Shown piece after piece: positions 27,115 through 64,000 of a stretch of 64,000 bases of DNA. Numbering within the stretch: the stretch's first letter is position 1; each line of letters begins with the position of its first letter. A program made the translations under genes and the position numbers. The notes under the pieces were generated by a model that searched no databases, was not told where the DNA came from, and was given only the letters and a program-made list of their open reading frames with translations. The stretch covers positions 62,001 through 126,000 of the forward strand of contig PHEQ01000005.1 of NCBI GenBank assembly GCA_002842985.1, in the 5' to 3' direction. Source of the stretch: Alphaproteobacteria bacterium HGW-Alphaproteobacteria-1. GTDB lineage: Bacteria; Pseudomonadota; Alphaproteobacteria; Rhodobacterales; Rhodobacteraceae.

Positions 27115-27134
27115 ACCCGCCGCGATCCGCATAG

Positions 27135-30193: not shown

Positions 30194-30235
30194 CATGGCT
30201 GGAAATGCACGGCAACACCAAAGAGACACTGTGAA

Positions 30236-30985: not shown

Positions 30986-30990
30986 CGGAT

Positions 30991-31013
30991 CTGCGGGCGC
31001 CCCCCGCCCGCAG
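30991..31013. terminator. GC-rich convergent hairpin
   Basis: CTGCGGGCG (30991-30999), CCCCC loop, CGCCCGCAG (31005-31013), between two convergent genes. There is no T-tract on either strand, so a weak or Rho-assisted bidirectional stop is the most that can be said. Confidence 0.45.
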
Positions 31014-31028
31014 GCCATGCCGGTCAGA

Positions 31029-33313: not shown

Positions 33314-33320
33314 GGCATCC

Positions 33321-35437: not shown

Positions 35438-35444
35438 GGCCCGC

Positions 35445-36380: not shown

Positions 36381-36466
36381 TCGTGAACGCGGCGGACATG
36401 GAACCCCGCGCCACTCTCATGTAAGATCGCGAAAGACAGAAAACAGACAAGGGACGGACCTCGCCC

Positions 36467-37417: not shown

Positions 37418-37434
37418 GCGATCTGGCCCGGGTG

Positions 37435-38526: not shown

Positions 38527-38626
38527 CCCGCCGCTTGCGTTCAAAGGGGCGCGGTCCGGCCCTATCCCCCTATGCACCGGATCGAACCCGGACTTAAAGC
38601 CCCGACCGCCCGAAAGACGCGCCACC

Positions 38627-39562
38627 ATGTTCAACACCACGCCCCGGGAAATCCGCGCCCTTGCCAGCCGCCACCTGATCCTCGGCGCGCTCTTCTTCCT
38701 GCCCAAAGCCCGCAAGCTCGGGCTGGAGCGGCGCCTGCGCGGACGCGAGGAATACCGGAAATTGCAGGAAACCGACTGGGTGCTGATGTCTTGGGGCAAA
38801 AGCGGGCGGACATGGTTCCGCGTCATGCTCTCGCGCTTCTACCAGCTTCATTTCGCCCTGCCGACCGAGAACATGATCGAGTTCGACAATTTCCACCGCC
38901 TGAACCCGGCAGCGCCCAAGGTGCTGTTCAGCCACAACAACTACATGCGCGACTATCTGCGCGAATGGGACAGCCTTGCGCATTTCAAGGGCAAGAAGGT
39001 GGTGCTTCTGGTGCGTGATCCGCGCGACGTGGCGGTGTCGCAGTATTTCCAGTGGAAATACCGGATGCTGCCCGGCAAGAAAGAGCTGAATTTCTATCCG
39101 CCCCACGGGGCGGAGGTGGAGATTTTCGATTTCGTGTCGAACCCCGACTGCGGCATTCCGCGCATCGTGGATTATTTCAACGGCTGGGCGCGGGCCATGC
39201 CGATGATGGGCGATGACCTTCTGATGATCCGCTACGAGGACATGCGCGCCGATCCTGGCGCCGCGCTGCAAAAGGCCGTGACCCATACCGGCACGCCGGG
39301 CGATCCTGCGCATATCGAGGCCGCGCGCGACTATGCCGCCTATGAGAACATGAAAAAGCGCGAGGCAAAAAACGAGGGGATGCGCGCCAGCGGCCAGCGC
39401 GTCAAGCCCGGGGACGAGAACAACCCAGACAGTTTCAAGGTGCGGCGCGGCAAGGTCGGCGGCTATCGCGACTATTTCACGCCCGAGCAATTGGCGGCGG
39501 TGGATGCGATGGTCAAAGGGCGGCTCGACCCGGTGTTCGGCTTCGACGGCGCAGGCGGCTAG
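38627..39562 (+). CDS. P-loop sulfotransferase (paralogue 3 of 3)
   Basis: A 311-residue PAPS-dependent sulfotransferase. PAPS loop WGKSGRTW (56-63), then [15 protein letters not shown] and [18 protein letters not shown] from about 131. It is most like paralogue 1 ([21 protein letters not shown] and the KVGGYRDYF tail are shared). The ATG at 38627 was chosen over the long upstream frame, which crosses the ELM1 gene. Its stop overlaps the convergent methyltransferase end by 4 bases. Confidence 0.88.
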
Positions 39563-40299
39563 ACCGGCTTGGCCTCGGGCTGCGGGACCAGCACGCCAAG
39601 GGGCCGCTTGACCTTTTCGCGCAGGCCCGGCCCACTCGGGGCCTGAACGCGCTTGGTCGCCTCCACCATGAGCACACCACCCGCAGCCACCATGGAAAAC
39701 CGCATTCCAATCCGCTCCCACATGCCGGCCGTGCGCCGCCAGAACGGGCGGTCCGAGGGCGGTTGATAGAGCGCGGTGGCGTGTCGCTCAGGCAGGAAAT
39801 TATGCGATTTCAACTGGTTTTCCAGTTGCGTCTGGGTGTAGGGGCGCCCGAATCCGAACGGCGTGCGGTCCGTGCGCGACCAGATCCCCGCCCGGTTTGG
39901 CACCATGAAGAGCGCCGATCCGCCGGGGCCGAGCACACGCCAGCATTCCTCCAGCAGATCGCCGGGCCGGTCAGACGTCTCCAGCCCGTGCACCACCAGA
40001 AGCTTGTCCACATGGCCGGTTTCCAGCGGCCAGAGCGTCTCTTCGCAGAGCACCGAGACATTGGGCATCCCCTGCGGCCAGCCGATCACGCCTTGCGGCG
40101 CGGGCATGAGCCCCACCACGCGGCGCGCATCCGCCAGATAAGGCCGCAGGAACGGCACGGCAAAGCCGAACCCCGCCACCGTCTGTCCCTGCGCCTCGGG
40201 CCAGAAGGTCGCAAGCTGCGCGCGCAACGTCTTCTGCACCGCACGCCCCAGAGGGTTGCGGTAATAGAAGTTTCGCAAATCCTGCACGTCGAGATGCAT
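39559..40299 (-). CDS. SAM-dependent methyltransferase
   Basis: A 246-residue methyltransferase of the class I fold. The glycine motif is weak ([11 protein letters not shown] near 42-52), but the later [20 protein letters not shown] (about 116-135) is the characteristic motif after the acidic strand, as in ubiquinone-type methyltransferases. It diverges from gloB by 64 bases, an arrangement that I recall as common in Rhodobacteraceae. Substrate unknown. Confidence 0.83.
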
Positions 40300-49835: not shown

Positions 49836-50020
49836 CGGCAGGGCCTTTCGGTGGGGATTGGTCGCGGCAAGCCTAACGCAGTTTCCGGCCCGAGCGATAG
49901 GGTCTCGGATCGGAAATGGACAGGGCCGGTCGAACCTCGGCGGCTTGCAAAAACTTGATGTGATATTTCAACAGGCCCGCCCTATCTGGCCTCTGAGCGA
50001 TGATCGTGCGGAGAAACGCC

Positions 50021-50521
50021 ATGCCAGTGAAGATCGGACGACGGCAAGTGCTGGTGGCGGCGGGGGGCCTCGCTCTCGGAGGGGCCGCTTTCGCGGGCTT
50101 GCGCCTGTGGTCCGCCCGGCTCGAGGAACTGGCCACGGCTCCGGTATTCTCGACCGATGGCGTGGCGATCCGGGGCACCGATCCGGTGGCCTATTTCACC
50201 GAACGCCGTCCCGAGGCGGGCGATCCGGCCCATGTCCACGACTGGCGCGGTGCGGTCTGGCATTTCGCCACAGCCGAGAACCGCGACCGGTTTGCCGTCG
50301 AGCCCGAGCGCTATGCCCCGCAATATGGCGGCTTCTGCGCCTGGGCGGTGGCGGAAAAGGGCAAGCTCTATTCGACGCAGCCGGGCAACTGGTCGATCGT
50401 GGACGGCAAGCTTTACCTCAACTTCAACGACGACATTCAGGCCCGGTGGGAGACGGATATTCCTGGCTTCATCATGGCCGGTGACAGGCGCTGGCCCGAG
50501 ATCCTGACCGCGCGCGGCTAG
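50021..50521 (+). CDS. YHS-domain protein
   Basis: A 166-residue protein with a twin-Arg-like N-terminus (MPVKIGRRQVLVAAGG) that suggests Tat export or a membrane anchor. The YHS-type domain (about 45-140) includes GTDPVAYFTE and YGGFCAWAVAEKGKLYSTQPGNW. YHS domains often bind metal; no function is known for this variant. The ATG at 50021 has GGAGAAACGCC before it. A 9-bp inverted repeat follows at 50535-50561. Confidence 0.82.
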   Translation: MPVKIGRRQVLVAAGGLALGGAAFAGLRLWSARLEELATAPVFSTDGVAIRGTDPVAYFTERRPEAGDPAHVHDWRGAVWHFATAENRDRFAVEPERYAPQYGGFCAWAVAEKGKLYSTQPGNWSIVDGKLYLNFNDDIQARWETDIPGFIMAGDRRWPEILTARG

Positions 50522-50753: not shown

Positions 50754-52556
50754 ATGCAAGCGACCGGCAGTTCGCATGATCTGGCCTTGCGAAAGGCTGA
50801 TTTCTCCACTCTGTGCGAGGCGCTCGATTATGCGGCGCTGGGCACGACCGGGGTGAATTTCTACAACGCGAAGGGCGAGATCTATGCCTCGTCCACCTAT
50901 ACCGAATTGCGCAATGAGGCGATGGAACTCGCCCGCCGCCTGATGGGCCTCGGGATCGAGCGTGGCGGGCGCGTGGCGCTCGTGGCCGAGACCTCGCCGC
51001 ATTTCGTGCGCTTCTTCTGGGCCTGTCAGTATGCGGGCCTTGTGCCGGTGCCCCTGCCCGCAACGATCCAGATCGGCGGGCACGCGGCCTATGTGACGCA
51101 GCTTGCGCAGCTGATCCGCAATTGCGGCGCCTCGGCGGCGATGGCGACGGCGGAATGGGCCGATTTCCTTGCTGAGGCCGTGGCCGATATGGACCTTGCC
51201 TGCGCGGGCACGCCCGAGACGTTTGACGCGCTTGCGCCGGTCGCCGGAGACCTGCCCGGCGTGACCCCCGAGAGCACGGCCTACATCCAGTATACCTCGG
51301 GCAGCACGCGCTTTCCGCGCGGCGTGGTGATCGACCAGAAGACGGTTCTGGCCAATATCCGCGACATGTCCGCGAACGGGCTCAAACTGCACGAGGGCGA
51401 CCGGTTCAGCTCGTGGCTGCCTTTCTATCACGACATGGGGCTTGTCGCCTTCATCATCATGCCGATGGCGACGCAGCGCTCGGTGGATTTCCTCGGCACC
51501 CATGATTTCGCCATGCGCCCGCGCAAGTGGCTCGAGATGATGTCGGCCAACCGTGCCACGATCACCTCGGCACCGCCCTTTGCCTATGAACTGGCGGTGA
51601 TGCGCATTCGCCCGCGCGATGCCGAGGGGCTTGACCTGAGTGCCCTGCGCGTGGCCTGCGTGGGGGCCGAGATGATCACCCCCGAGCCGCTCGAGCGGTT
51701 TGCCGAAGTGCTGGCCCCCGCCGGTTTCCGCAAAACCGCTTTCCTGCCCTGCTACGGCATGGCGGAATGTTCGCTCGGGATCAGCTTTCTCGGCCTCGAT
51801 GAGGAAGTGCGGATCGACCATATCGATTCCGAGGACATGCAGCATGACGGCATCGCCCGCCCGCTCGACCCCGCCGAGGCCGAGGGCACAGAGCGCCGCG
51901 TCGCGCGCTATGTCGATTGCGGCGCGTTGCTGCCGACGTTTGACATCGAAATCCGTGACGAAAACGGCCGGCCCCTGCCCGAGCGGCACGCGGGCGTGAT
52001 TCATCTGCGTGGCCCGAGCGTGATGAGCGGCTATTTCCAGGACCCCGAGATGACGCGCGAGGCGCTGAGCGCCGATGGCTGGCTCAATACCGGCGATATC
52101 GGCTATCTCGCGGGCGGGCGGCTGTTCCTGACGGGGCGCAAGAAGGACATGATCATCATCCATGGCCGCAACATCTGGCCGCAGGATCTCGAACATCTGG
52201 CGAAAAGCCAGCCGGGCGTGAGCTATAACGACGTTGCGGCCTTCTCGGTGCCGTCCGGGGACGGGCGCCACGAAGAGGCGGTGATCGTGGTGCAATGCCG
52301 CGAGCGCGACGAGATCAAGCGTGCGCGTCTGGTCAAGACCATCATCGGCATGGTGCGCAGCGAATTCGGCATCGACTGCCGGGTGGAACTGGTGCCGACG
52401 CGGACGCTGCCGCGCACCTCTTCGGGCAAGCTGGCCCGCGCGCGCGCGCGGCTGGACCATATGGCGCGGCAACAGGCGGCGGCCTCGGTGCCCGTGCAGC
52501 CTGCCACTGCGCAACCCGAGACCGTGGACGAGGCGCCGATCCGTTACATTGCATGA
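50754..52556 (+). CDS. Fatty acyl-AMP ligase / acyl-ACP synthetase of the ceramide operon
   Basis: A 600-residue ANL-superfamily enzyme. The ATP loop YTSGSTRFPRG is near 180-190, CYGMAECSLG is the FAAL-type motif, and GRKKDMIIIHGRNIWPQDLE is the hinge. The catalytic Lys is in RTSSGK (about K560). It activates a fatty acid as acyl-AMP and likely loads the ACP encoded two genes later. It corresponds in order and type to the acyl-ACP synthetase (AasR) of the Caulobacter ceramide genes. The ATG at 50754 follows AAAGGACAACTCG. It overlaps the reductase gene by 4 bases. Confidence 0.9.
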   Translation: MQATGSSHDLALRKADFSTLCEALDYAALGTTGVNFYNAKGEIYASSTYTELRNEAMELARRLMGLGIERGGRVALVAETSPHFVRFFWACQYAGLVPVPLPATIQIGGHAAYVTQLAQLIRNCGASAAMATAEWADFLAEAVADMDLACAGTPETFDALAPVAGDLPGVTPESTAYIQYTSGSTRFPRGVVIDQKTVLANIRDMSANGLKLHEGDRFSSWLPFYHDMGLVAFIIMPMATQRSVDFLGTHDFAMRPRKWLEMMSANRATITSAPPFAYELAVMRIRPRDAEGLDLSALRVACVGAEMITPEPLERFAEVLAPAGFRKTAFLPCYGMAECSLGISFLGLDEEVRIDHIDSEDMQHDGIARPLDPAEAEGTERRVARYVDCGALLPTFDIEIRDENGRPLPERHAGVIHLRGPSVMSGYFQDPEMTREALSADGWLNTGDIGYLAGGRLFLTGRKKDMIIIHGRNIWPQDLEHLAKSQPGVSYNDVAAFSVPSGDGRHEEAVIVVQCRERDEIKRARLVKTIIGMVRSEFGIDCRVELVPTRTLPRTSSGKLARARARLDHMARQQAAASVPVQPATAQPETVDEAPIRYIA

Positions 52557-53503
52557 GCCAACAGGTCGCGGTCACCGGGGCTGCGGGGTTTGTCGGGCAG
52601 GCCCTGGTCGCGCGGCTTCTGGCCGAGGGCTACGGTGTGCGCGCACTGGTGCACCGCACGCCGATCAGCATCCAGCATCCCGCGCTGGAGAGCGTGACGG
52701 GCAACCTTGCTGACGAGGCGGCGCTCGGGCGGCTGATTGCGGGGGTGGACACCGTCATTCACGTGGCGGGCGTGGTGCGCGGTCGTGACGCGCGCGATTT
52801 CCGGCCGGTCAATGCCGAGGGCGTTGCGCGCGTGGCGGGCATCGCCGAAACACAGCCCACACCGCCGCGCATGATCCTGATTTCCTCGCTCGCCGCGCGC
52901 GAACCGCAGCTTTCGCATTACGCCGCGAGCAAGCGCGAGGGCGAGGCGCTTCTGGCGCGAACCGGCCTTGATCACACGATCCTGCGCCCGCCCGCGATCT
53001 ACGGCCCCGGCGACCGCGAGCTTGTGCCGCTCTTCGAGACCATGGCGCGCGGCATCGTGCCGCTGCCGGGGGCGAAGGGCGCGCGCGCCTCGCTTCTGCA
53101 TGTCGACGATCTGGCGCGCGCCATTCTTGCGCTCGTCGCGCATCCCGCGCCCGGCACGTTCGAACTCGATGACGGGCGCGCGGGCGGCTATGGCTGGGAG
53201 GAGATCGCGGCCATCGTCGAAGAGGTGGCGGGCCGTGGGCGCGGCTGGCGGGTGCCGCTTCCCGGCGCGCTCATGCACACGATCGCCACGACCAATCTTT
53301 TCGCCGCGCGGCTTTTCGGCTATCAGCCGATGCTGAGCCCCGGCAAGCTGCGCGAGTTGCGCCATCCCGACTGGGTGGCGGACAATACCGCGCTGAGCGC
53401 CGCCACCGGCTGGCAACCGCTAATCCCGCTGGCCAGGGGGCTGCGGGCGCTTTGGAACAGGCCGGACCCGCAACCCGAGAGAGGCAAGAGCCATGTCAAC
53501 TGA
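52553..53503 (+). CDS. NAD(P)-dependent epimerase/reductase of the ceramide operon
   Basis: A 316-residue extended SDR. The cofactor loop VTGAAGFVG is at 7-15, S111/S112 precede the catalytic pair Y123 and K127 in HYAASK. In Caulobacter the reductase of ceramide synthesis (CerR) is of this type and sits beside the same partners, so reduction of 3-oxo-sphinganine or 3-oxo-ceramide is likely. It begins with an ATGA overlap on the ligase and its end overlaps the ACP gene start by 11 bases. Plain sugar-epimerase activity is the alternative. Confidence 0.86.
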   Translation: MSQQVAVTGAAGFVGQALVARLLAEGYGVRALVHRTPISIQHPALESVTGNLADEAALGRLIAGVDTVIHVAGVVRGRDARDFRPVNAEGVARVAGIAETQPTPPRMILISSLAAREPQLSHYAASKREGEALLARTGLDHTILRPPAIYGPGDRELVPLFETMARGIVPLPGAKGARASLLHVDDLARAILALVAHPAPGTFELDDGRAGGYGWEEIAAIVEEVAGRGRGWRVPLPGALMHTIATTNLFAARLFGYQPMLSPGKLRELRHPDWVADNTALSAATGWQPLIPLARGLRALWNRPDPQPERGKSHVN

Positions 53504-53750
53504 GACACAGGACGAGATCATCGAGACGCTTTACGGCTTTCTGGAGCGATTCCCCAAAGCCACTGGGAATCTCGGACCCGATACCAAGCTGGCCGACGAT
53601 CTCAGCCTCGATTCGGTCAACCTGATGGAATTGCTGGTCGAGATCGAGGATCACTATGACATCGGCCTGCCGCTCAACATGATGGCCGACATCACCACGA
53701 TCCGCGAACTGGCCGCCAAGATCACGCAACTCATCGAGGACAGGGCATGA
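53493..53750 (+). CDS. Acyl carrier protein of the ceramide operon
   Basis: An 85-residue acidic four-helix ACP. The phosphopantetheine attachment Ser is S41 in SLDSVNLMEL. It overlaps both neighbours (11 and 4 bases), so it is made with the acyl-AMP ligase, reductase and palmitoyltransferase-like enzyme. It likely carries the long acyl chain for condensation with serine, as the dedicated ACP (AcpR) does in Caulobacter. It is not the housekeeping AcpP, whose gene would be near fab genes. Confidence 0.92.
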   Translation: MSTETQDEIIETLYGFLERFPKATGNLGPDTKLADDLSLDSVNLMELLVEIEDHYDIGLPLNMMADITTIRELAAKITQLIEDRA

Positions 53751-54946
53751 GCATCACCACACGTTTTGCCGAGATGGCGCAGGTCCGCGACGGGCTGCGC
53801 GGGCTTCAGGCCGACCCGAGCCGCATCGTGATGGAGCGGTTCCTGTCGCCCACCGAGGCGGTGATCGGCAATCGCCCGACGATCCTTGTCGGCACCAACA
53901 ACTATCTGGGCCTGACCTTCGATCCCGAGGTCATCGAGGCCGCCTGCAAGGCGATGCACGAAGAGGGCAGCGGCACCACCGGCTCGCGCATGGCCAATGG
54001 CAGTTTTTCCAGCCATGCAGCCCTCGAAGAGGAATTCGCGCGCTTTTACGACATGCCCTCGGCGATGCTGTTTTCCACCGGGTATCAGACCAATCTGGGC
54101 CTTCTCATGGCGCTGTTGCAACCCGGTGACAAGGTGGTTCTGGACAGCCACAGCCATGCCTGCATCTATGACGGCTGCCGGATCAGCGGCGCGGATTTCT
54201 TCGCCTTCAAGCACAATGACCCCGAGGATCTGCGCAAGCGTCTGCGCCGTCTGGGCGGCGCGGCGGAGGGCTCGCTCGTCATCGCCGAAGGGCTTTACAG
54301 CATGTGGGGCGATACCGCACCCTTGGGCGATCTTTGCGCCGTGGCCAAGGAATTCGGCACGTGGTTCATGGTCGACGAGGCGCATTCCTTCGGCGTCTAT
54401 GGCGAGACGGGGCGCGGATTGTGCGAAGAGGAGGGCATCCTCGATCAGGTGGATTTCATCACCGGGACGTTTTCCAAAAGCCTCGCCTCGCTGGGTGGAT
54501 TCTGCGTAAGCCGCCATCCTGAATTGCAGCTTCTGCGCTATGGCAGCAGGCCCTATATCTTTACCGCCTCATCCAGCCCCGCCAGCATCGCGGCGGCGCA
54601 TACCGCTCTCAAGGCAGTGCGCGGGCGGCCCGAGTTGAAGGCACAGCTTTGGGCCAACGCGCGCAGGCTCCATGCCGGGCTGACCGCGTTGGGCTATCGG
54701 CTCGCCTCGGGGCCAAGCCCGGTCATCGCAGTGCAGGTGCCCTCTCACGAAGAGGCGGCGCGGATGTGGAACGCGCTGCTGGATCAGGGGGTCTATGTGA
54801 ACCTCGTGGTGCCGCCCGCAGCCCCCGAGGGGGCGTCGCTCTTGCGCTGCTCGCTGAGTGCCGGGCACACCTTCGATCAGATCGACCGTATTCTTGCCGG
54901 GTTCGAAGCGGTGCGCACAGAGGCCATCACGGCGGTGGCCGGGTAG
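53747..54946 (+). CDS. spt: Serine palmitoyltransferase-type alpha-oxoamine synthase
   Basis: A 399-residue PLP enzyme of the alpha-oxoamine synthase family. DEAHSFGVYGE is near 210-220 and the PLP Lys in GTFSKSLASLGG near 244. It lacks any N-terminal signal. AOS members include KBL, BioF, HemA and Spt; here the co-transcribed ACP, acyl-AMP ligase and reductase point to Spt, condensing serine with an acyl-thioester to 3-oxo-sphinganine. The ATG overlaps the ACP stop by 4 bases. Substrate amino acid and chain length cannot be read from sequence. Confidence 0.87.
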   Translation: MSITTRFAEMAQVRDGLRGLQADPSRIVMERFLSPTEAVIGNRPTILVGTNNYLGLTFDPEVIEAACKAMHEEGSGTTGSRMANGSFSSHAALEEEFARFYDMPSAMLFSTGYQTNLGLLMALLQPGDKVVLDSHSHACIYDGCRISGADFFAFKHNDPEDLRKRLRRLGGAAEGSLVIAEGLYSMWGDTAPLGDLCAVAKEFGTWFMVDEAHSFGVYGETGRGLCEEEGILDQVDFITGTFSKSLASLGGFCVSRHPELQLLRYGSRPYIFTASSSPASIAAAHTALKAVRGRPELKAQLWANARRLHAGLTALGYRLASGPSPVIAVQVPSHEEAARMWNALLDQGVYVNLVVPPAAPEGASLLRCSLSAGHTFDQIDRILAGFEAVRTEAITAVAG

Positions 54947-54963
54947 GGCAGGAGCGGCGGACG

Positions 54964-55875
54964 GTGCTGGCAACCCCCGAGAGCGGCGTCGTGCTGGCGC
55001 ATCTGTCGGATGTGCATCTGCCGCTGCCCGCGCGCGTGGACTGGCGCGACGTGCTGAACAAGCGCGCGCTGAGCCTGCTGTCCTGGCGGCGCAAGCGGCA
55101 CAAGGTGCACCGGCCCGAGGTGCTGGCGCGGCTGGTGACCGACATGAAAGCGGCCGCACCGGGGCTGATCGCGGTGACCGGGGACCTGACAAATCTGGGC
55201 CTGCCGATTGAGTATGACCGCGCGCGCAAATGGCTTGACGCGCTTGGGGACCCTGATCGCGTCATGGTCATCCCCGGCAATCACGAGGCGCTGGTGCGCG
55301 GCGCCTGGGAGACCGGCGCGCAGACATGGCGGCCCTGGTGGCAGGGCGATGACGGGGGCGGTTTTCCCTGGCTGAGGCGGCGCGGCGGGCTGGCACTCAT
55401 TGGCGTGTCGAGCGCCGTGGCCTCTGCCCCCGGTCGCGCCGTAGGCGCGGTGGGGACGGCGCAGCTTGACCGGCTGGCGGGGCTGCTGGCACAGGCACGT
55501 GCCGAGGGCCTCTGTCGCGTCGTCATGGTGCATCACCCGCCGCTTGACGGCACGGTGAAGGCACGCAAGCGGCTCCTGGACGCGCCCGCGCTGCGTGCGG
55601 TTCTGGCGCGCGAGGGGGCCGAGATGGTGCTTCATGGTCACAGCCACCGCAGCCACCACCAGCAGATGCAGACCGCCAGCGGCGTGGCCCCCGTGATCGG
55701 CGTGCCCTCCGCCTCGGCCACCCATCCGGAACCCGCAGCCTACCACCTCTACCATATCGCCCCGGTCGCGGGGGGCTGGCAGGTCGTCCTGACCGCCCGC
55801 CGCCACACGACCGACGGCATGGAGACAAGCCACACCGCCACCCATCACCTCGCGCGCGCCCATGCCGCGCCGTAA
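54964..55875 (+). CDS. Calcineurin-like metallophosphoesterase
   Basis: A 303-residue phosphoesterase with all metal motifs: LSDVHLP near the N-terminus, TGDLTN, GNHE, HHPP and GHSH. The start is GTG 54964 behind GCAGGAG; the frame upstream lies in spt. It is 17 bases after spt and 71 before the ABC transporter gene, so it probably belongs to the same transcript. It may remove or transfer a phosphate from a lipid intermediate, such as an LpxH-like step, but this is inference. Confidence 0.88.
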   Translation: MLATPESGVVLAHLSDVHLPLPARVDWRDVLNKRALSLLSWRRKRHKVHRPEVLARLVTDMKAAAPGLIAVTGDLTNLGLPIEYDRARKWLDALGDPDRVMVIPGNHEALVRGAWETGAQTWRPWWQGDDGGGFPWLRRRGGLALIGVSSAVASAPGRAVGAVGTAQLDRLAGLLAQARAEGLCRVVMVHHPPLDGTVKARKRLLDAPALRAVLAREGAEMVLHGHSHRSHHQQMQTASGVAPVIGVPSASATHPEPAAYHLYHIAPVAGGWQVVLTARRHTTDGMETSHTATHHLARAHAAP

Positions 55876-55946
55876 CGCGCCCGGGGCCGGTGGACATTCC
55901 CGCGCCCCGAAGCGATAGAGCGCACACCCAACCGGAAAGCCACGCC

Positions 55947-57653
55947 ATGCGCCTGATGATCCACCTCTTCCGCGCCTACCCGATGCCCAGTTTCCTCATG
56001 GTTCTGGCGCTGTTCCTGTCGGGGTTGGCCGAGGGGCTTGGCCTCTCGGCGATGTTGCCGATGCTCAAGATCGCGCTGTCCTCGGGGGAGGCGGCAGAAA
56101 ATGCCGGCCCGCCGGGTGAGCTGGAACAGGTCGTGCTCGACGTGCTGGCCTGGCTCGGGGTGCCGCCGACGCTTGGCGCGCTCCTGCTCTTGATCGTGGC
56201 CATGGCGACGCTCAAGGCGATCCTGCTGCTCGCCGCGCAACGGCAGGTCGGCTATACGGCAGCGCGGGTGGCAACGGACATGCGCCTTGAGGTGTTGCGC
56301 AACATGATGCGCAGCCGCTGGAGCTTTTTCCTGCATCAACCGGCAGGCAAGCTGACCAATGCGCTGGCCACCGAGGCACAGCGGGGGGCGGACGCCTACA
56401 TGTTCGGTGCGACCGCGCTCACCTTCTTCATTCAGGCGATTGTCTATGGCTCGGTGGCGCTTGCCGTGTCGTGGAAGGCAACGGTTCTTGGCCTCATGGC
56501 CGGGGCGGTGGTGATCTGGGTATCGCACTTTCTTGTGCGGATGACGCGGCGGGCGGGCAAGCGGCAGACCGAGTTGATGACCTCGCTCATGTCACATCTC
56601 ACCGACATGCTGCAATCGGTCAAGCCGCTCAAGGCGATGGCGCGCGAGAACCAGACCGACGACATGCTGCGTGGCGAGACCAACCGCCTCAACAAGGCGC
56701 TGCGCAAACAGGTGCTGGCGGGTGCCGCGCTCGACGCGGGCCAGGACCTGATGTTCGTCATGCTCATCGCCCTCGGCGTCTATCTGGCGATCGGCGTGCT
56801 TGCGATGGAATTCGCCACGGTGCTGATCCTCGCGGTCGCGCTCGGGCGGACCTTCGCCTTTCTCGGCAAGGTCCAGAAACAGTATCAGAAGCTTGCCCAG
56901 GCCGAGAGCGCCTATTGGTCGCTCAAGGACACAAGCGCGCGCGCCGAGGCCGAGCAGGAGCATCTGGGCGGCCATGTCACGCCGACGCTGGAGCGCGAGA
57001 TCACGCTCAGCGGTGTGCGTTTTGCCTATGAGGGCCACTCGGTTCTGGGCGGTCTCGATCTGACAATCCCGGCGCACCGGATCACTTCATTGGTGGGGCC
57101 GTCCGGCTCGGGCAAGACCACGATCATCGACCTTGTCATCGGCCTGTTACGCCCCGAGGGCGGCGAGATCAGGATCGACGGCGTGCCGTTCGAGACGGTC
57201 GATCTGCGTGCCTGGCGGCGGATGGTGGGCTATGTGCCGCAGGAGACGGTGCTGCTCCATGACACCGTGCTGCACAATGTCACGCTGGGCGACCCGGCGA
57301 TATCTCAGGAGCGCGCTGTCGCCGCGCTGGAAAAGGCCGGGGCCTGGGACTTCGTGCGCACCTTTCCCGAGGGGCTGGAGACGGTCGTGGGCGAGCGCGG
57401 CGGCAGGCTGTCGGGTGGCCAGCGCCAGCGCATCGCCATCGCGCGCGCGCTGATCAACGCGCCGCGCCTCTTGATCCTGGACGAGGCGACAAGCGCGCTC
57501 GACCCCGAAAGCGAAGCCGAGATCATCGCCACGCTTGAGGCGCTCAAGGCCGAGCTGACCATCCTTGCCATCACCCATAACGACACCCTCGCGCAGGCCG
57601 CGGACGTGGTGCATCGGCTCGAGGTGGGCGGCACGCTCAGCCGCGCGGGATAA
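55947..57653 (+). CDS. MsbA-like ABC transporter (fused permease and ATPase)
   Basis: A 568-residue half-transporter. Six membrane helices (about residues 8-300) are followed by a nucleotide-binding domain with Walker A GPSGSGKTT near 384-392, signature LSGGQRQR near 488 and Walker B LLILDEATSALD. It works as a dimer in the inner membrane, and the context suggests export of a sphingolipid or lipid-linked product. It converges with the ELM1-family gene; their 3' ends overlap by 17 bases. Confidence 0.9.
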   Translation: MRLMIHLFRAYPMPSFLMVLALFLSGLAEGLGLSAMLPMLKIALSSGEAAENAGPPGELEQVVLDVLAWLGVPPTLGALLLLIVAMATLKAILLLAAQRQVGYTAARVATDMRLEVLRNMMRSRWSFFLHQPAGKLTNALATEAQRGADAYMFGATALTFFIQAIVYGSVALAVSWKATVLGLMAGAVVIWVSHFLVRMTRRAGKRQTELMTSLMSHLTDMLQSVKPLKAMARENQTDDMLRGETNRLNKALRKQVLAGAALDAGQDLMFVMLIALGVYLAIGVLAMEFATVLILAVALGRTFAFLGKVQKQYQKLAQAESAYWSLKDTSARAEAEQEHLGGHVTPTLEREITLSGVRFAYEGHSVLGGLDLTIPAHRITSLVGPSGSGKTTIIDLVIGLLRPEGGEIRIDGVPFETVDLRAWRRMVGYVPQETVLLHDTVLHNVTLGDPAISQERAVAALEKAGAWDFVRTFPEGLETVVGERGGRLSGGQRQRIAIARALINAPRLLILDEATSALDPESEAEIIATLEALKAELTILAITHNDTLAQAADVVHRLEVGGTLSRAG

Positions 57654-58752
57654 GCGCGCGAATGGCGGCGGTGGCGCGGGCCATATCGTCGCCCTCGACG
57701 TTTTCGCGCGCGGGCGGCAGCGGATCGCCCAGCCAGACCGCCCGTCCGGATTGGACGAGCCGCAGGTGCAACCGGCTGATATCGCGACTGAGATAGGACC
57801 AGCCATAACGCATCAGCGCGCGATAGGCGCTTGCGCCCAGGGCATGGTCGGCGCGGTCCGTATCGGCAAGGGCCAGCGCGCGGGCCGCCTGCGCGTCGCC
57901 CGCCGCGCAGAGCATGTCATGACGCATCGAGGACCGCCCTGCCCCGGTGTCGAACATATGCACGGGGCGGCCCGTGGCATGGGCTTCGGCCAGCATGGAA
58001 ATGCTGTCGGCGGTCACGATCACCTCATCGGCCAGCGCCAGAAAACCCAGATAGGGATTGTCCGGATCGTCGCGCCGCCAGCGATAGAGCTGCATCGGCA
58101 CCGCCGCTTGCGCCGCAAAGGCGTCGAGCGCAACGGCCGGCGTGCGCGCGCTCGAACTGACCAGAAGCGAGCCACCCCGCGCGCGCGCCAGCGCCAGCGT
58201 ATCGCGCAAGAGCCGCGCGGCGGCGTTGGGGCCAAAGGCATAGGGCCCGCTGGTGCCGCCGATAGTCACCGTGAGGTAAGGGCGGGGCAGATGCGCAAGG
58301 CGCGGCGCCCAGAGGGTGGCGGCCTCATCCAACCGCGCCCGCGTCACGCCGTGCAACGGCAGCGCGTTGCGCAGCACATTGGCGCGTTCGGGCACGGGGT
58401 ATTGCGGCGTGGTGATGATCAGGTCGAAATGGCGCGGATCGGCCCATTGCCGCCCCAGAAACACCAGCCGCGTGCGCCCGCCCGATTGGTCGCGGATCCA
58501 GCGCGCCACCGGCTCGTTGCGCATCCCGATGGAAAGGACCACATCGGGCCAGGGCGGGGCAAGTGCATCGGACCCCGCCAGAGCGACGCCCTTCAGATCG
58601 TTGCGCAGGAAAAGCGCGCTCGCCAACCCGAAACGGCGATAGGAGAGCCGCTTGATCTCGAACGGCCAGCCAAGCGCCGTGGCCAGCGCGCGCAACTGCG
58701 TGCGCTCGCCCGCGCGATAGGCGTCGAGCACCCAGACGCGGGGGTCAGACAT
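57637..58752 (-). CDS. ELM1 (DUF1022) family protein, copy 3 of 3
   Basis: A 371-residue ELM1-family protein. VLDAYRAGERTQLRALATALG, PPWPDVVLSIGMRNEPVARW and DEVIVTADSISMLAEAHATGRP are shared segments with the two other copies. Its start overlaps the LpxL-like gene by 8 bases, making a minus-strand operon with that gene and the hydroxylase. GT-B-like activity on a lipid is likely but unproven. This copy sits in the sphingolipid region, which supports a lipid glycosylation idea for the family. Confidence 0.86.
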   Translation of the reverse strand: MSDPRVWVLDAYRAGERTQLRALATALGWPFEIKRLSYRRFGLASALFLRNDLKGVALAGSDALAPPWPDVVLSIGMRNEPVARWIRDQSGGRTRLVFLGRQWADPRHFDLIITTPQYPVPERANVLRNALPLHGVTRARLDEAATLWAPRLAHLPRPYLTVTIGGTSGPYAFGPNAAARLLRDTLALARARGGSLLVSSSARTPAVALDAFAAQAAVPMQLYRWRRDDPDNPYLGFLALADEVIVTADSISMLAEAHATGRPVHMFDTGAGRSSMRHDMLCAAGDAQAARALALADTDRADHALGASAYRALMRYGWSYLSRDISRLHLRLVQSGRAVWLGDPLPPARENVEGDDMARATAAIRALIPRG

Positions 58753-59692
58753 CGGCGGCCCGTGGCGGGCGGGGCTTGGGCCAGCGCCGTTTCATGCACA
58801 GCCATTGGCCCGGATCCTCTCGGATCCAGTCCTCGAACACCGCATTGAGCCGCGCGGTGAGGTCAAGCACCTGATCCTTGCGCGGCGCGTCGGGGTCGGC
58901 GGGAGCGAGCGGGGCCATGACCTCGATCCGGTAGCGCGTGCCGGGCAGGCGCACCGCGCGGATCGGGATCAGCGGATGGCCGCGCAGCGCCAGCATCGCG
59001 GGCAAAGTGTTGGTCATCGCGGGCACGCCGAAAAAGGGCACCGCTTCGCCCTCGTCGATGCGCGTATCAAATGCGGCACCCACCGAACGCCCGGCGGCCA
59101 GTTCGCGGATCATGTCGCGCACGCCGCCCGCGCTTGGCACCATCGGACCGCCGAAATGTCGCCGCCGCGCGAGAAAGAAGCGGTCCATCCAGGGGTTGCT
59201 GTCGGGTGCGTAGAGCACTGCTACTGAGAGGTCATGGGCGCGCGCAATAAAATTGCAGAGTTGCCATGCGCCGGTATGGGCGGTGGCGAAAACGATGGGG
59301 TCCTTGCGGCGGATCGCCACCTCCGCCTCGGGGTGGAGCCTGAATTCCAGGTAGCGGTCGCGCCCGCGCCAGATCCGGTCGAGCAGGAACAACTCGACCG
59401 CCGCGTGACCGGTGGAGCGGAAGATATCGCGCGCCACGGCGTCGCGGTCAGCCTCGCTCGCGTCACGCATCATCACCGCGAGGTTGCGCCGGACCACGCG
59501 CAACTTGTTAGGATTGCGAATGCCGATGAAGCCGAGGCAGGCGGCAAAGACCCGCGTGGCCAGCGGCACCGGCATGAGCCGCGCCACCCCGTAGAGAAGG
59601 TAGAATACCGCCGCCTCGAACAGCCAGACCGGCGTTTGTGCCGCGGGCATGCGGTCCATCAGATGCTTGGGCAGCAGGTAATATTTCGCCAT
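58745..59692 (-). CDS. LpxL/HtrB-like acyltransferase with altered active site
   Basis: A 315-residue protein of the lipid A lauroyl-acyltransferase family with an N-terminal hydrophobic region (about 22-55). The HX4E catalytic motif reads HTGAWQ, so H139 is kept but Gln (Q144) replaces the acid. Catalysis by the usual charge relay would be weakened or lost. The rest (RVVRRNLAVMM, the ALRGHPLIPIR block) is normal. It is between the hydroxylase and ELM1 genes on one transcript and may act on a lipid other than lipid A, or be structural. Confidence 0.85.
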   Translation of the reverse strand: MAKYYLLPKHLMDRMPAAQTPVWLFEAAVFYLLYGVARLMPVPLATRVFAACLGFIGIRNPNKLRVVRRNLAVMMRDASEADRDAVARDIFRSTGHAAVELFLLDRIWRGRDRYLEFRLHPEAEVAIRRKDPIVFATAHTGAWQLCNFIARAHDLSVAVLYAPDSNPWMDRFFLARRRHFGGPMVPSAGGVRDMIRELAAGRSVGAAFDTRIDEGEAVPFFGVPAMTNTLPAMLALRGHPLIPIRAVRLPGTRYRIEVMAPLAPADPDAPRKDQVLDLTARLNAVFEDWIREDPGQWLCMKRRWPKPRPPRAADV

Positions 59693-59743
59693 GGCTCGAT
59701 CCCGGCCCTCAGACAGCGCGCCGTTGGGGCGCGGGCCCGTGCC

Positions 59744-60391
59744 TCAGGGGCGCTCTGCGCGGTCGGATTTCTCCGGATAGGTGCCGAAAACCCAGTCCCA
59801 GACCGGCGAGGACACGCCATAGCGGCCCGGATCTTTCGAGAAATGGTGGCGCATGTGGTAATGCTTGAGGAATTGCAGCGCCGGGTGTTTCATCGGAAAG
59901 TGATGCGTCGCGTAGTGGATGTAGTCGTAGACCAGATACCCGATGATGAAGAAACCGGTGAACGGCTCGGCCCAAGGGTAGGGCAGCACCAGCCAGAAGA
60001 TCAGGTAGAGCACGGCAATGATCGGCAAGGCCCCCGCGGGCGGCATCAAAAGCCGCGTCTTGTCCTGCGGCGTGTCGTGGTGGACACCGTGAAACAGATA
60101 GATGAAGCGGCGGCCCAGATCGGTCTTCGGCTCAAAATGAAACAGGTAACGGTGCAGCAGGTATTCCGCCAGCGTCCATGTCACCAGCCCCGCGAGCCCG
60201 ATCAGCGCCAGACCGCCAAACCCGATGCCATGCACCGCAACCGCGCGCCAGATCAGCCAGCCCGCGACCGGCGACCAGACCACAAGCGGCACGATCGGAT
60301 GCACATGGCTGAGTTTTTCCAGCAGCGGATTCTTGAACAGCCGGACAGAGTCGTCCACGCGATGACGGCGGCTGGGTTGATGGTTCGACAT
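59744..60391 (-). CDS. FA2H/sterol-desaturase-family fatty acid hydroxylase
   Basis: A 215-residue membrane di-iron hydroxylase with about four hydrophobic helices. The His clusters are intact: H80 and H85 (LLHRYLFH), H101, H104 and H105 (HGVHH), H159, H163 and H164 (HYATHH), H177, H179, H182 and H183. The HGVHHDTPQDKTRL block is close to FA2H/Scs7, the 2-hydroxylases of sphingolipid fatty acids. This fits a role in ceramide hydroxylation beside the ceramide operon. It heads a minus-strand operon with the LpxL-like and ELM1 genes. Confidence 0.88.
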   Translation of the reverse strand: MSNHQPSRRHRVDDSVRLFKNPLLEKLSHVHPIVPLVVWSPVAGWLIWRAVAVHGIGFGGLALIGLAGLVTWTLAEYLLHRYLFHFEPKTDLGRRFIYLFHGVHHDTPQDKTRLLMPPAGALPIIAVLYLIFWLVLPYPWAEPFTGFFIIGYLVYDYIHYATHHFPMKHPALQFLKHYHMRHHFSKDPGRYGVSSPVWDWVFGTYPEKSDRAERP

Positions 60392-60420
60392 GGGGCAACC
60401 TCTTTGATGCGGGCGCGGCG

Positions 60421-61428
60421 TCAGGCTTCTTTATATATGTCGGTTTTCGCCCGAAGAACAGCGCCGCGCCAGATTTTGCTGGTGCAGAGCCATTCGCCCG
60501 GCCGCGCGCTGATCCACTCCTCGAACCGCTCGTGGATCTGGAGGGTCAGGTCAAGCGCCTGCGCGTCCGTGTCGGCCTCGGGGTTGCGCGCAACAAGCGG
60601 CGCGTGAAAGCGCACGGTAAAGCGCGCGCCGGGGTGACGCTCGACCTGCACCGGCACAAGCGGCGCCCCGAAGCGCAGCGCAAGGCCCGCAGGCAGGGTG
60701 GAGCTGTCCTTTTCCACGCCGAAAAACGGGATCGGCTTGCCCCCCTCCACGCGGCGGTCGATGATCATGGCCGGGGCCTCGCCGTTCTTGAGGGCCTGCA
60801 TGAAGACGCGCAGCCCCGCGTCGCGCGACACCGTTTCGCATCCCAGCCGCGCGCGATAGCGCAGCATGATCTTGTCCAGCCAAGGATTGGCCAGCGGCGC
60901 ATAGAGCGCATAGGACCGGATCCCCATCTGCGTCATCGCGGCGCAGGCCACCTCCCAGTTGCCGAGATGCGCGGCGACGAAGACCACGGGCGTGCCGGGG
61001 CGGCAATAGGCCGGATCATCCTCGACCGTCTCGATGCGCAGCAGGCCGCGCCTGGGGTCGGTAAATTTGGCCAGATGCGGATATTCGGCAAAGACGGCGC
61101 CCGCATTGCCCCAGACCTCCTCGGCCAGCCGGTCGATTTCGGCGGGCGATTTTCCGGGCAGCGCAAGCGTCAGGTTGGCGCGCACATGGCGGGTGCGGTT
61201 CTTGAAGATGCGGCCCAGAAACCGGCCAAACCCCGCCCCCGTGGCCGAAGCCCATGGCAGCGGCAGCAGGCGGAAAAATCCGGCCATCGCACCGACAAAG
61301 GCCAGATCGAGAAACCACAACGCATTGCTGGCGGCCCGGCTTTCGAGCGCCTTGTGGCGAAGATGGCTTCCGAGGATGAACTTGGCCAAGACGGCCCCCT
61401 GAGCGGTGAACGGTTGTCCCCGGTTCAT
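60421..61428 (-). CDS. LpxL/HtrB-like acyltransferase
   Basis: A 335-residue lipid A acyltransferase-family protein with the canonical HLGNWE motif (H154, E159) and an N-terminal hydrophobic anchor (about 36-62). It resembles acyl-ACP or acyl-CoA dependent late acyltransferases of lipid A, but its place in the ceramide region allows another lipid acceptor. The ATG at 61428 is the likely start; the frame is open to 61488, and neither has a strong ribosome site. It is the second LpxL-like gene within 2 kb. Confidence 0.87.
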   Translation of the reverse strand: MNRGQPFTAQGAVLAKFILGSHLRHKALESRAASNALWFLDLAFVGAMAGFFRLLPLPWASATGAGFGRFLGRIFKNRTRHVRANLTLALPGKSPAEIDRLAEEVWGNAGAVFAEYPHLAKFTDPRRGLLRIETVEDDPAYCRPGTPVVFVAAHLGNWEVACAAMTQMGIRSYALYAPLANPWLDKIMLRYRARLGCETVSRDAGLRVFMQALKNGEAPAMIIDRRVEGGKPIPFFGVEKDSSTLPAGLALRFGAPLVPVQVERHPGARFTVRFHAPLVARNPEADTDAQALDLTLQIHERFEEWISARPGEWLCTSKIWRGAVLRAKTDIYKEA

Positions 61429-61636
61429 CGGGGTTTGGCCCCTGATCTGCAAGCGTTTTGTGGCAAGGGCCCGCCGCCCGTGGCGCACGGATCTGTAACA
61501 ATCTTACCGGTTTCAGAGTCCCGGCGCGCAGGGGGGCTTGCCCTTGATGGCCCCGATGCGGCAAGGCTGAAGAGGTCCACAGGCGGGCGGTGCGGGGGGC
61601 AACCCCCTCCGCGCCCGGCAGAACGAAAGGCACCAG

Positions 61637-62785
61637 ATGGCAATCCCCGCGCCCGCAAGCGCCCCGATCGATGTCCGTCCGGCGGAAAGTGGCCGTGCGG
61701 CGCGCGATTTCCTGCACCTGCCTGAGCGGATTTACGCCGGTGACGCGGCCTTTGTGCCGCCGCTTCTGATAGAGCAGAAACAGCGGGTCTATCAGAACAA
61801 GCCGCTTTTCGCGCATTGCGAGGTGGCCCGATGGGTGGCCTATCGCGGGGCCGAACCGGTGGGACGCATCACCGCGCAGATGGACCGCCTCCAGCCCGAG
61901 GTGGAGGGCGGCAAGCTCGGCTATTTCGGGATGCTCGAGGCAGTCGATGACGCGGCCGTGTTCGCGGCCCTCTTCGAGACGGCCGAGACGTGGCTGCGCG
62001 CGCGCGGCGCGGCGCATGTGCGCGGGCCCTACAACCTGACGATCAACGAGGAAATCGGCCTTCTGGTCGAGAATTTCGACAGCCCCTCCTATATCATGAT
62101 GGGCCACGCGCCGCGCTATTATGGCCCACGCATCGAGCAACAGGGCTTTGCGGGCGTCAAGGATCTGCTGACCTACATGGTGCAGCCCGATTTCGTGGCA
62201 CCGCCCGTCATGACCAAGCTGGCCGAGCGCGCCAGCCGCAAGGTCACGATCCGCCCCTTCAACCGCAAGGACAAGGCCGCCGATTTCGCCGCCATGCGCG
62301 ATATCTTCAACGATGCGTGGTCGGACAACTGGGGCTTCGTGCCCTTCACGCCCGAGGAATTCGACGAGACGGCCAAGGCGCTCACCCTGCTTCTGCCCGA
62401 CGACTATATCCAGTTCGCCGAGATCGAGGGCCGCCCGGTGGCCTTCATCACCGCATTTCCGAACCTCAACGAGATGATCCACGACCTGCGCGGGCGGCTG
62501 TTGCCGTTCGGCTGGGCCAAGCTTTTGTGGCGGCTCAAGGTGCGGGGGGCCAAAAGCACGCGCGTGGCGCTGATGGGGGTGCGCAAGGAGCATCAGTATT
62601 CGCGGCTGGGGCCGACGTTGGCCTTTCTGGTGATCGATTCGGTGCGCAAGCGGATGATCAAACGTGGTGTGACCCGGGTCGAGATGGGCTGGATTCTGGA
62701 GGATAACGACGGTATGCGCCACATCATCGAGGAAATCGGCAGCACCATTCACAAACGCTACCGCCTCTATCAAAAGCCGCTCTGA
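61637..62785 (+). CDS. GNAT-fold acyltransferase, candidate bacterial ceramide synthase
   Basis: A 382-residue GNAT-superfamily protein. The N-terminal domain contains ARDFLHLPERIYAGD and LLIEQKQRVYQNKPLF, and the second half DDYIQFAEIEGRPVAFITAFPN is a GNAT acetyl-CoA-type core, with VRKEHQYSRLGPTLAFLVID. The N-acyltransferase (bCerS) of Caulobacter ceramide synthesis is, as I recall, a GNAT-like protein of this size encoded near spt. The location supports N-acylation of sphinganine. It precedes the nucleotidyltransferase gene by 8 bases. Confidence in the substrate is moderate. Confidence 0.8.
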   Translation: MAIPAPASAPIDVRPAESGRAARDFLHLPERIYAGDAAFVPPLLIEQKQRVYQNKPLFAHCEVARWVAYRGAEPVGRITAQMDRLQPEVEGGKLGYFGMLEAVDDAAVFAALFETAETWLRARGAAHVRGPYNLTINEEIGLLVENFDSPSYIMMGHAPRYYGPRIEQQGFAGVKDLLTYMVQPDFVAPPVMTKLAERASRKVTIRPFNRKDKAADFAAMRDIFNDAWSDNWGFVPFTPEEFDETAKALTLLLPDDYIQFAEIEGRPVAFITAFPNLNEMIHDLRGRLLPFGWAKLLWRLKVRGAKSTRVALMGVRKEHQYSRLGPTLAFLVIDSVRKRMIKRGVTRVEMGWILEDNDGMRHIIEEIGSTIHKRYRLYQKPL

Positions 62786-62793
62786 GGCCCCCC

Positions 62794-63624
62794 ATGACCC
62801 GACCCGAGACCCAAACGCCCGACTTCGCCGCCGTCATTCTGGCCGGCGAACGCGACGCGCAGGACGCGCTGCGCGATCACGCAGGCGTGGCCAGCAAGGC
62901 GCTGATCGAGATCGCGGGCAAGCCCATGATCGTGCGGGTGATCGCGGCGCTCGAGGGGGCCGCGCGGGTCGCCTCGGTGCATCTGAGCGGCCCGGCAGAG
63001 GCGGTCGTGACCGGCTCTGACGTGCTCGCCGGGCTGATCGAGGCGGGCCGCGTGGACTGGACCGCGCCGGGCCCCAGCCCTTCGACCAGCGCCTTCGAGA
63101 TGCTGCGCCGCTTTCCCGAGGGCCAGAAGGTGATGATCACCACCGCAGATCACCCGCTGCTGTCCAGCGAGATCGTCGATCATTTCTGCCGCGACGCGGC
63201 GCGCTCTGGCTGTGACGTGGTGGTGGGGTTGGCCCCTTATGATCTGGTGCGCGGGGCCTATCCCGACCTCAAGAAAACCGTGCTGCGCTTTGCCGACGGG
63301 CAATATTGCGGCTGCAACCTCTTTGCCTTTCTCACCACGGATGGCCGTCGCATGGCCGATTTCTGGCGGCGGATCGAGCGCGAGCGCAAGAAGCCGCTGG
63401 TTGTGATCCGGATGCTGGGCTTGCTTGCGGTGCTGCGCTACCGGCTGGGCTGGCTCACGCTCGACCGCGCGCTGGCGCTTTTGTCGCGCAAGGCGGGGCT
63501 GCGCGTCGGCGTGGTCGTGCTACCCTATGCGCACGCCTCGGTAGACGTCGACTCGGTCGATGATTATGTTGTGCTTCAGCGTTATGCCAAGGCGGCCCCC
63601 ACGCCGCAACCTGCCCCGACCTGA
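62794..63624 (+). CDS. MobA-like nucleotidyltransferase
   Basis: A 276-residue NTP-transferase-fold protein. AAVILAGERD (about 11-20) replaces the classic LAGGxG loop, and KALIEIAGKPMIVRVI and ITTADHPLLSSEIVDHF (metal Asp) follow. It lies in an operon with the GNAT gene, so transfer of a nucleotidyl group to a lipid head group or sugar is possible. MobA itself is unlikely, because the loop differs and there are no molybdenum genes here. The C-terminus (about 225-276) is unique. Confidence 0.82.
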   Translation: MTRPETQTPDFAAVILAGERDAQDALRDHAGVASKALIEIAGKPMIVRVIAALEGAARVASVHLSGPAEAVVTGSDVLAGLIEAGRVDWTAPGPSPSTSAFEMLRRFPEGQKVMITTADHPLLSSEIVDHFCRDAARSGCDVVVGLAPYDLVRGAYPDLKKTVLRFADGQYCGCNLFAFLTTDGRRMADFWRRIERERKKPLVVIRMLGLLAVLRYRLGWLTLDRALALLSRKAGLRVGVVVLPYAHASVDVDSVDDYVVLQRYAKAAPTPQPAPT

Positions 63625-63675: not shown

Positions 63676-64000
63676 ATGACCACCACAGCAACCAAACTCC
63701 TGAATTTCGACGCTGTCGAAAAGGCCCCGCTCACCACCGAACCGTTCAGCTTCATGGTCGCCAAGGACGTGATCCCGGCGGACATGCTGGAGCGGGTGAA
63801 CGCGGATTACCCGCATATCGACCGGCCCGCCAACTTCAAGCCCGAGAGCCTGACCTACGGCCCGCTTTTCGCGCAGATCCTCGAGGATCTCGACAGCCCC
63901 GAATTCGAGCGGATGATCTCGCGCAAGTTCGACATCGACCTGAGCCAGACCACCAAGACCATCACCGTGCGCAAGCTGTCGGAGCCGAGCGACGGCAATA
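63676..64000 (+). CDS. Partial 2OG-Fe(II) oxygenase-like protein
   Basis: The first 108 residues of a gene running past the window end. The PFSFMVAKDVIPADMLERVNADYP start and TTKTITVRKLSEPSDGN end look like the N-terminal half of a 2-oxoglutarate/Fe(II) oxygenase, just before the expected HxD motif, which is outside the window. Function and length cannot be given. Confidence 0.6.
   Translation, partial: MTTTATKLLNFDAVEKAPLTTEPFSFMVAKDVIPADMLERVNADYPHIDRPANFKPESLTYGPLFAQILEDLDSPEFERMISRKFDIDLSQTTKTITVRKLSEPSDGN

Follow-up and report, generated by a model that had tools for sequence, protein, structure and literature searches.

Published work names five dihydroceramide genes, aasR, epi/cerR, acpR, spt and aca/cerS, the last called yghO in Escherichia coli BL21 (PMC9386255). 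Spt and the ceramide synthase bCerS are cytoplasmic and CerR is periplasmic, and flippases and transporters were described there as not yet identified (PMC11087976); CC_1166 of Caulobacter crescentus has been named a potential flippase, and second copies of LptC, LptF and LptG have been noted (PMC11324152). Sphingomonas naturally makes sphingolipids and no lipid A, and Caulobacter survives without lipid A in a condition requiring a sphingolipid (PMC10964400). In a 2020 survey of type strains based on chemotaxonomy, reported sphingolipids in Alphaproteobacteria seemed restricted to Sphingomonadales (PMC7179689), a view already outdated because dihydroceramides have been reported in Rhodothalassium (PMC11762602). 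Among titles and abstract openings in the open literature, we found no report of sphingolipids in Roseovarius, of ceramide lipidomics in Rhodobacterales or of a lack of lipid A in Rhodobacteraceae. We analyzed a 64,000-nucleotide stretch of a Rhodobacteraceae genome (GCA_002842985.1, contig PHEQ01000005.1, positions 62,001 to 126,000; the window), which carries the operon aasR-cerR-acpR-spt. Judged from its genes and those of related genomes, the likely product of this operon is the ceramide core of a lipid that replaced lipid A in the outer membrane.

The Caulobacter ceramide and CPG/CPG2 region CC_1168-CC_1152 (PMC11324152, PMC9386255) likewise contains aasR, cerR, acpR, spt and cerS, its kinase and CpgC genes are possible counterparts of the kinase-like and CpgC-like genes of the window, and its nucleotidyltransferase CC_1153 lies beside cerS as in the window. 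LptC2, LptF2, LptG2 and a protein with a CDP-alcohol domain, CC_1159, are also encoded in Caulobacter; neither such a domain, as expected of CpgA, nor a second LptF/LptG set was found among the scanned window genes (26377-40299 and 49356-64335). Extra to the window are LpxL-like, ELM1, sulfotransferase and Scs7-like genes, and no match to LpxC was obtained in its genome. E. coli BL21(DE3) has the same aasR-epi-acpR-spt order plus yghO (ECD_02850-02854), with identities of 26-49%; it differs in that its spt adjoins genes with the annotations lptG and lptF, and in that it keeps lpxD, lpxA and lpxB. As in Sphingomonas, by published description (PMC10964400), sphingolipid genes occur here with missing lipid A genes. 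Unlike in Sphingomonas, related species within the genus differ in this state, and LpxL-like, ELM1 and sulfotransferase genes belong to the cluster. Bacteria that have sphingolipids but no lipid A are already known from Sphingomonas; what appears new is which genes the cluster contains, how patchily it is distributed in a single genus, and its apparent transfer.

An earlier reading of the DNA letters (the sequence-only reading) had described overlaps of 4, 11 and 4 bases between the four genes, and the coordinates agree (Table 1). The gene acpR lies immediately 5' of spt, and its product contains the phosphopantetheine serine motif DSV at position 40. The other motifs were also found intact, as had been stated: FSKS at 242 and DEAH at 210 of Spt, YTSGST, YGMAE, TGDIGY and TSSGK in AasR, and TGAAGFVG and YAASK in CerR. 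We take all of these to be active-site motifs. Spt scored below the cut-off of the BioF profile (326.5 bits; cut-off 426.45) and of the glycine C-acetyltransferase profile PRK06939 (306 bits; cut-off 460). Compared with the sequences of solved structures, it matched serine palmitoyltransferases best (2x8u, 405.8 bits; 2jg2, 397.7 bits), and the best KBL reached 215.3 bits. By both measures Spt is nearer to serine palmitoyltransferases than to BioF or KBL, the two families to which the sequence-only reading had allowed that it might prove closer.

That reading had called the four genes exactly the set known for Caulobacter, which is incorrect, since five genes make up the set described in the literature (PMC9386255) and bCerS had been missed. 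When the whole genome was searched with BL21 YghO, a single match was obtained at E<=1, and its position at 61637-62785 makes the ceramide gene set complete inside the window. The profile PF04339 (FemAB_like), tried as a bCerS profile, matched one gene on contig C23 and was dropped, as BL21 YghO pointed to a different gene. The predicted synthesis of ceramide is thus well supported by sequence, and the prediction was incomplete, since it left out bCerS, the remaining cluster genes and the accompanying disappearance of lipid A genes.

The window genome (G000; 4.02 Mb, 85 contigs) was placed in the Roseovarius group because of the five named relatives of its Spt (85-95% identity), which belong to Roseovarius autotrophicus SHN287, three Roseovarius metagenome-assembled genomes and one Rhodobacteraceae metagenome-assembled genome. 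Sphingolipid synthesis had been thought unusual for the group, which holds for the family, where spt was found at E<=1e-110 in 7 of 394 genomes (393 genera, G000 included), but not within the genus, where Spt exceeded the profile cut-off in 8 of 36 genomes. bCerS was detected in 17 of 60 genus genomes, and it coincided with spt over the cut-off in all 36 genus genomes compared (8 with both, 28 with neither). We defined genomes as type I when their bCerS was 77-100% identical to the window protein (11 genomes) and as type II when it was 35-39% identical (6 genomes). All 11 type-I genomes contained spt, detected by profile in G000, G005, G018, G019 and G024, by tblastn of genomic stretches in G452, G454, G457 and G470, and through loci L017 and L016, taken as the same contigs, in G453 and G465. 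Among type-II genomes, spt was detected in four of six (G001, G008, G020 and G471) and was not seen by tblastn in the examined stretches of G455 and G466. The named strain R. autotrophicus SHN287 carries the type-I cluster.

LpxC was searched for genome-wide in the 60 genus genomes with PF03331 at E<=0.001. It was found in 48 genomes, and the 12 without it were the 11 type-I genomes and G460. The latter, the sole exception among 49 non-type-I genomes, is an assembly of 790 contigs with 81% completeness and retains lpxA-lpxI-lpxB. Type I therefore matches LpxC absence in 59 of 60 genomes, and the one that breaks the match is incomplete (Fisher's exact p = 3.5e-11, a figure that ignores kinship). 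Among the 52 genomes that were at least 90% complete and at most 5% contaminated, LpxC was lacking from 8/8 type-I genomes and present in 44/44 others. It was missing even from the near-complete type-I genomes G457 (100%, 3 contigs) and G452 (99%, 6 contigs).

We then compared the locus of fabZ, which was located by TIGR01750 (above cut-off in 58/60 genomes; 59 loci examined, all except that of G017, which gave a weak match only). The order fabZ-lpxA-lpxI-lpxB was present in 48/48 informative non-type-I genomes, including G460. In contrast, lpxA and lpxB were not at this locus, to which the comparison was confined, in any of the 10 informative type-I genomes; the next sought gene there was the ABC gene that trails lpxB in G001 and G023, except in G470. 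The locus of G018 was uninformative because the contig ends soon after fabZ. Two local features were also observed. Type-I G470 retains lpxI between fabZ and the ABC gene (L072, ~9913-10800; 60% over 300 amino acids), possibly an operon remnant, and fabZ of G000 is interrupted by a run of N (L063, ~16309-16650; 42 N in the stretch), which looks like an assembly gap and not a real truncation, as both gene ends are present.

Two genes of the LpxL family (PF03279) lie within the cluster in G000, and they are the only two of its genome. The same holds for 10 of the 11 type-I genomes; G018 has a third, which groups with secondary copies of other genomes (L095). Against the LpxL equivalog NF005120 the window genes scored 144.4 and 128.5 bits (cut-off 273, applied to the window genes only), and they form clades separate from 16 other LpxL-family genes. 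The possibility that the pair is the relatives' LpxL relocated beside the cluster was rejected by this tree.

The surroundings of the operon were compared by tblastn of the window genes on other loci. The type-I order is aasR-cerR-acpR-spt-phosphoesterase-ABC exporter, followed on the opposite strand by ELM1-LpxL-like a-hydroxylase-LpxL-like b and then by bCerS-nucleotidyltransferase. It is complete in nine loci beyond the window (L014-L018, L045, L055, L059 and L060) and partial in L046 and L096 of G018, and in G019 spt and bCerS lie on separate contigs. In G453 a second block is contiguous with this one, giving a whole cluster of ~26 kb with the operon at one end; it comprises ELM1, sulfotransferases, the CpgB-like kinase and its CpgC-like partner, a conserved protein of unknown family and an AT3-SGNH acyltransferase. 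The kinase, its partner, ELM1-b and one sulfotransferase are also grouped in G454, G457, G452, G024 and G470, and in G005 the contig ends before the second block could be seen. In the window the second block occupies 26377-39562, ~11 kb before aasR, and the cluster was probably split there by one inversion of the intervening piece.

Species trees of 20 genomes built from RibB, NusB and RibH rejected a single type-I clade (approximately unbiased test, p-AU 0.0012) and required 4 changes; with BamA and FabZ added, p-AU was 0.0003 and 4 changes were again needed. Trees that included one further open reading frame of doubtful reality gave the same change count (p-AU 1.7e-29 and 2.6e-33), and the figures without it are used here. 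The BamA tree, with 19 genomes, required 5 changes. G015 and G023, which bear lipopolysaccharide (LPS) genes and have no spt over the cut-off, fall among the type-I species, and G018 pairs with G003, distant from the other type-I genomes. G015 has lpxC, lpxA, lpxI and lpxB and showed no spt match at E<=1e-60 and no bCerS; its nearest relatives in the trees, G000, G453, G454 and G465, have the reverse gene state. Type-I Spt forms a single clade (100/100); long-branch warnings were raised in the spt tree for E. coli, G047, G113 and G376, whose placements were left unused. Since type-I Spt is monophyletic and its hosts are not, transfer of the cluster is indicated, at least into the G018 line. 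Probably the cluster passed from lineage to lineage within the genus and each of these lineages lost its lipid A genes; regain of lpx genes by the LPS-bearing lines is a possible alternative history. The G+C content is 66.8% in 50754-63624 and 65.5% in the window, so that composition shows no sign of recent transfer. NusB, taken as a marker for the flank of the island, adjoins the cluster in G000 but lies on a different contig in several type-I genomes, and so gives no support for a shared insertion site.

The sequences support the presence of five ceramide genes, the absence of lpxC in type I and the lack of lpxA and lpxB at the locus where they normally lie; from these we infer the decoration steps, the transport route and the replacement itself. 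AasR would load a free fatty acid onto AcpR, Spt would condense the acyl-AcpR with serine, bCerS would attach the second acyl chain and CerR would reduce the ketone. The Scs7-like enzyme may then hydroxylate the ceramide acyl chain, the CpgB-like kinase may phosphorylate the ceramide, and the ELM1 proteins and sulfotransferases may add sugars and sulfate. The two LpxL-like enzymes, probably deprived of a lipid A substrate, may add further acyl chains. The ABC exporter would flip the lipid, which may then travel outward by the transport route that LPS has vacated. A ceramide-based lipid probably replaced lipid A more than once. We lean, by a small balance of belief, toward a transferable ~26-kb cluster that lets marine Roseovarius swap lipid A for an acylated, glycosylated and sulfated ceramide; on this view LpxL-type enzymes put to a new use account for part of its synthesis, and related species have made the swap on several occasions. 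Because lipid A loss varies within one genus, the question of replacement becomes testable in marine bacteria, including R. autotrophicus SHN287, and the cluster supplies candidates for open steps, such as the exporter as flippase and a bacterial Scs7-type hydroxylase.

Several observations weigh against replacement of lipid A by this lipid, the case for which is made from genes. Three type-I genomes are 65% (G453), 73% (G465) and 86% (G018) complete, and their missing LpxC therefore counts little. In the 20 tree genomes, type I and LpxC loss are the same trait, with 3-4 independent contrasts, all concordant (sign test p 0.25-0.125), so that the strong co-occurrence count partly reflects shared ancestry. 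Of the second block, the 15-kb stretch of G465 at ELM1-c yielded only ELM1-c itself and one sulfotransferase, and the kinase genes were not found there. Family and fold are the basis on which functions were assigned to the ELM1, sulfotransferase and LpxL-like proteins, and LpxL-like a has HxxxxQ in place of HxxxxE in 11/11 type-I genomes. The HxxxxE motif was itself discarded as a discriminator, as that column is N in 11 and E in 5 of the 16 LpxL-family genes from other loci.

One rival account takes the cluster to be an ordinary Caulobacter-like ceramide or phosphosphingolipid cluster working alongside LPS, the missing lpx genes being artefacts or replaced by unrecognised genes. The kinase-like, CpgC-like and bCerS-linked nucleotidyltransferase genes do resemble the Caulobacter set, and LpxC is kept in 6/6 type-II genomes, so that sphingolipid genes alone do not accompany LPS loss. 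Moreover, the loss is known genome-wide for lpxC and at the usual locus for lpxA and lpxB, with lpxD, lpxK, waaA and the Kdo and Lpt genes outside the genome-wide search. An artefact, however, fits poorly with the lack of LpxC in the near-complete G457 and G452 and with the lack of lpxA and lpxB between fabZ and the next conserved gene, and we regard this account as unlikely.

Another rival is that lipid A was lost first for another cause, such as a different surface layer, with the type-I cluster as a frequent companion; co-occurrence cannot order the events, and the independent contrasts are few. The near-perfect match of type I with missing LpxC, broken by one incomplete genome, and the location of the sole LpxL-like genes of 10/11 type-I genomes inside the cluster argue against a mere companion, which we consider highly improbable. 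The nature of the lipid could differ as well, if Spt used cysteate or another amino acid and the product were a sulfonolipid-like lipid and no ceramide. Sulfonolipid synthesis in Alistipes has been postulated to resemble sphingolipid synthesis (PMC9304779), and the cluster contains sulfotransferases; yet Spt scores above the serine palmitoyltransferase equivalog cut-off and its partners are dedicated ceramide genes in the E. coli BL21 order, which makes this very unlikely. Replacement of lipid A by a ceramide-based lipid thus remains the reading that we prefer, and the genes on which it draws are listed in Table 1.

Table 1. Genes of the type-I cluster in the window (positions of the window; percentages are amino acid identities)
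Gene or product	Position	Strand	Evidence
Gene without Pfam family	26377-27114	+	In single block with the rest in G453
AT3-SGNH acyltransferase	27135-29090	+	Pfam; in single block with the rest in G453
Sulfotransferase	29156-30193	+	Pfam; in single block with the rest in G453
Sulfotransferase, membership uncertain	30236-30985	+	PF03567; unmatched in 8 type-I stretches compared
Sulfotransferase	32336-33313	+	PF00685 7.9e-20; 91% in G453 and G454
ELM1-b	33321-34457	+	PF06258 6.6e-50
CpgB-like, putative ceramide kinase	34454-35437	+	PF00781, GGDG present
CpgC-like protein without Pfam family, putative kinase partner	35445-36380	+	33-38% relatives in other sphingolipid clusters
Conserved protein without Pfam family	36467-37417	+	79-97% identical in 5 other type-I genomes
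ELM1-c	37435-38526	-	PF06258 4.7e-57
Sulfotransferase	38621-39562	+	PF00685 1.1e-21
aasR, fatty acyl-AMP ligase/acyl-AcpR synthetase	50754-52556	+	NF006624 723.8 bits (cut-off 600); 45% to BL21 ligase
cerR (epi), SDR-type reductase of ketone intermediate	52553-53503	+	PF01370 8.6e-25, SDR/epimerase; 41% to BL21
acpR, dedicated acyl carrier protein	53493-53750	+	PF00550 (PP-binding), Ser 41 in DSV; only 26% to BL21 acyl carrier protein
spt, serine palmitoyltransferase	53747-54946	+	NF047599 570.9 bits (cut-off 500); 49% to BL21
Metallophosphoesterase	54964-55875	+	PF00149 1e-14; 17 bp 3' of spt; GTG start inferred
ABC exporter, membrane and ATPase domains fused, candidate flippase	55947-57653	+	PF00005, PF00664
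ELM1-a, candidate GT-B glycosyltransferase	57637-58752	-	PF06258 5e-58; AlphaFold model
LpxL-like acyltransferase a	58745-59692	-	PF03279 1e-37; own clade 100/100
Scs7-like, putative ceramide fatty-acid hydroxylase	59744-60391	-	PF04116; PDB 4zr1 2.7e-27
LpxL-like acyltransferase b	60421-61488	-	PF03279 2.6e-39; own clade 100/99; true start probably near 61428
bCerS (cerS/aca/YghO), ceramide N-acyltransferase	61637-62785	+	47% to E. coli BL21 YghO, E 7.5e-111
MobA-like nucleotidyltransferase, adjoining bCerS	62794-63624	+	PF12804
2OG-Fe(II) oxygenase	63676-64000, runs beyond window to G000:C6:126335	+	PF13640

The steps suggested for the hydroxylase, ELM1 proteins and exporter follow from their relatives. 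Over residues 9-205 of its 215, the Scs7-like protein aligns with yeast Scs7 (PDB entry 4zr1, named ceramide very long chain fatty acid hydroxylase SCS7). The two enzymes belong to the same family, and the window enzyme is bacterial and has no counterpart to the N-terminal part of 4zr0, a chain of 392 residues. The AlphaFold model of ELM1-a has a mean pLDDT (predicted local distance difference test score) of 75.8 and matched 64 PDB chains at E<=0.001. Glycosyltransferases and UDP-sugar epimerases made up most of the best 50 of these, which also included two complex-I entries and had TM-scores of 0.28-0.49, and we presume that the glycosyltransferase and epimerase matches share the GT-B fold. 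A role as lipid glycosyltransferase, if true, would give the ELM1 family a testable function. A single sphingolipid cluster contains three members of a family named after the mitochondrial fission protein ELM1. The exporter matched ABCB-type structures first (ABCB1 and ABCB4), with PglK and MsbA more distant, and was above no NCBIfam cut-off among the 25 matches listed.

Other genes of the cluster recur beside sphingolipid genes elsewhere. The CpgB-like gene is the sole DAGK_cat match in its genome, and relatives of its CpgC-like neighbor adjoin a kinase in 7/9 other sphingolipid clusters. The nucleotidyltransferase adjoins bCerS also in type II and in G113, G326 and G376. The metallophosphoesterase lies 3' of spt in type-I loci and is perhaps a general sphingolipid gene, because relatives (43-47%) occur in the spt regions of G160, G396 and G376. 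The structure predicted for the protein at 36467-37417 was poor (pLDDT 55.7).

Type-II loci were found in other Roseovarius-group genomes (L042, L043, L044 and L056), and these four genomes keep LpxC. L042 contains CDP-alcohol transferase, HAD, nucleotidyltransferase, LptA-like and ABC genes. In other genera, the CDP-alcohol domain and LptF/LptG occur in L050 and L053, and L053 also has kinase genes. Shortly upstream of the operon in the window, at 50000-50521, lies a member of the YHS-domain (seleno)protein family (NF041384, 151.7 bits).

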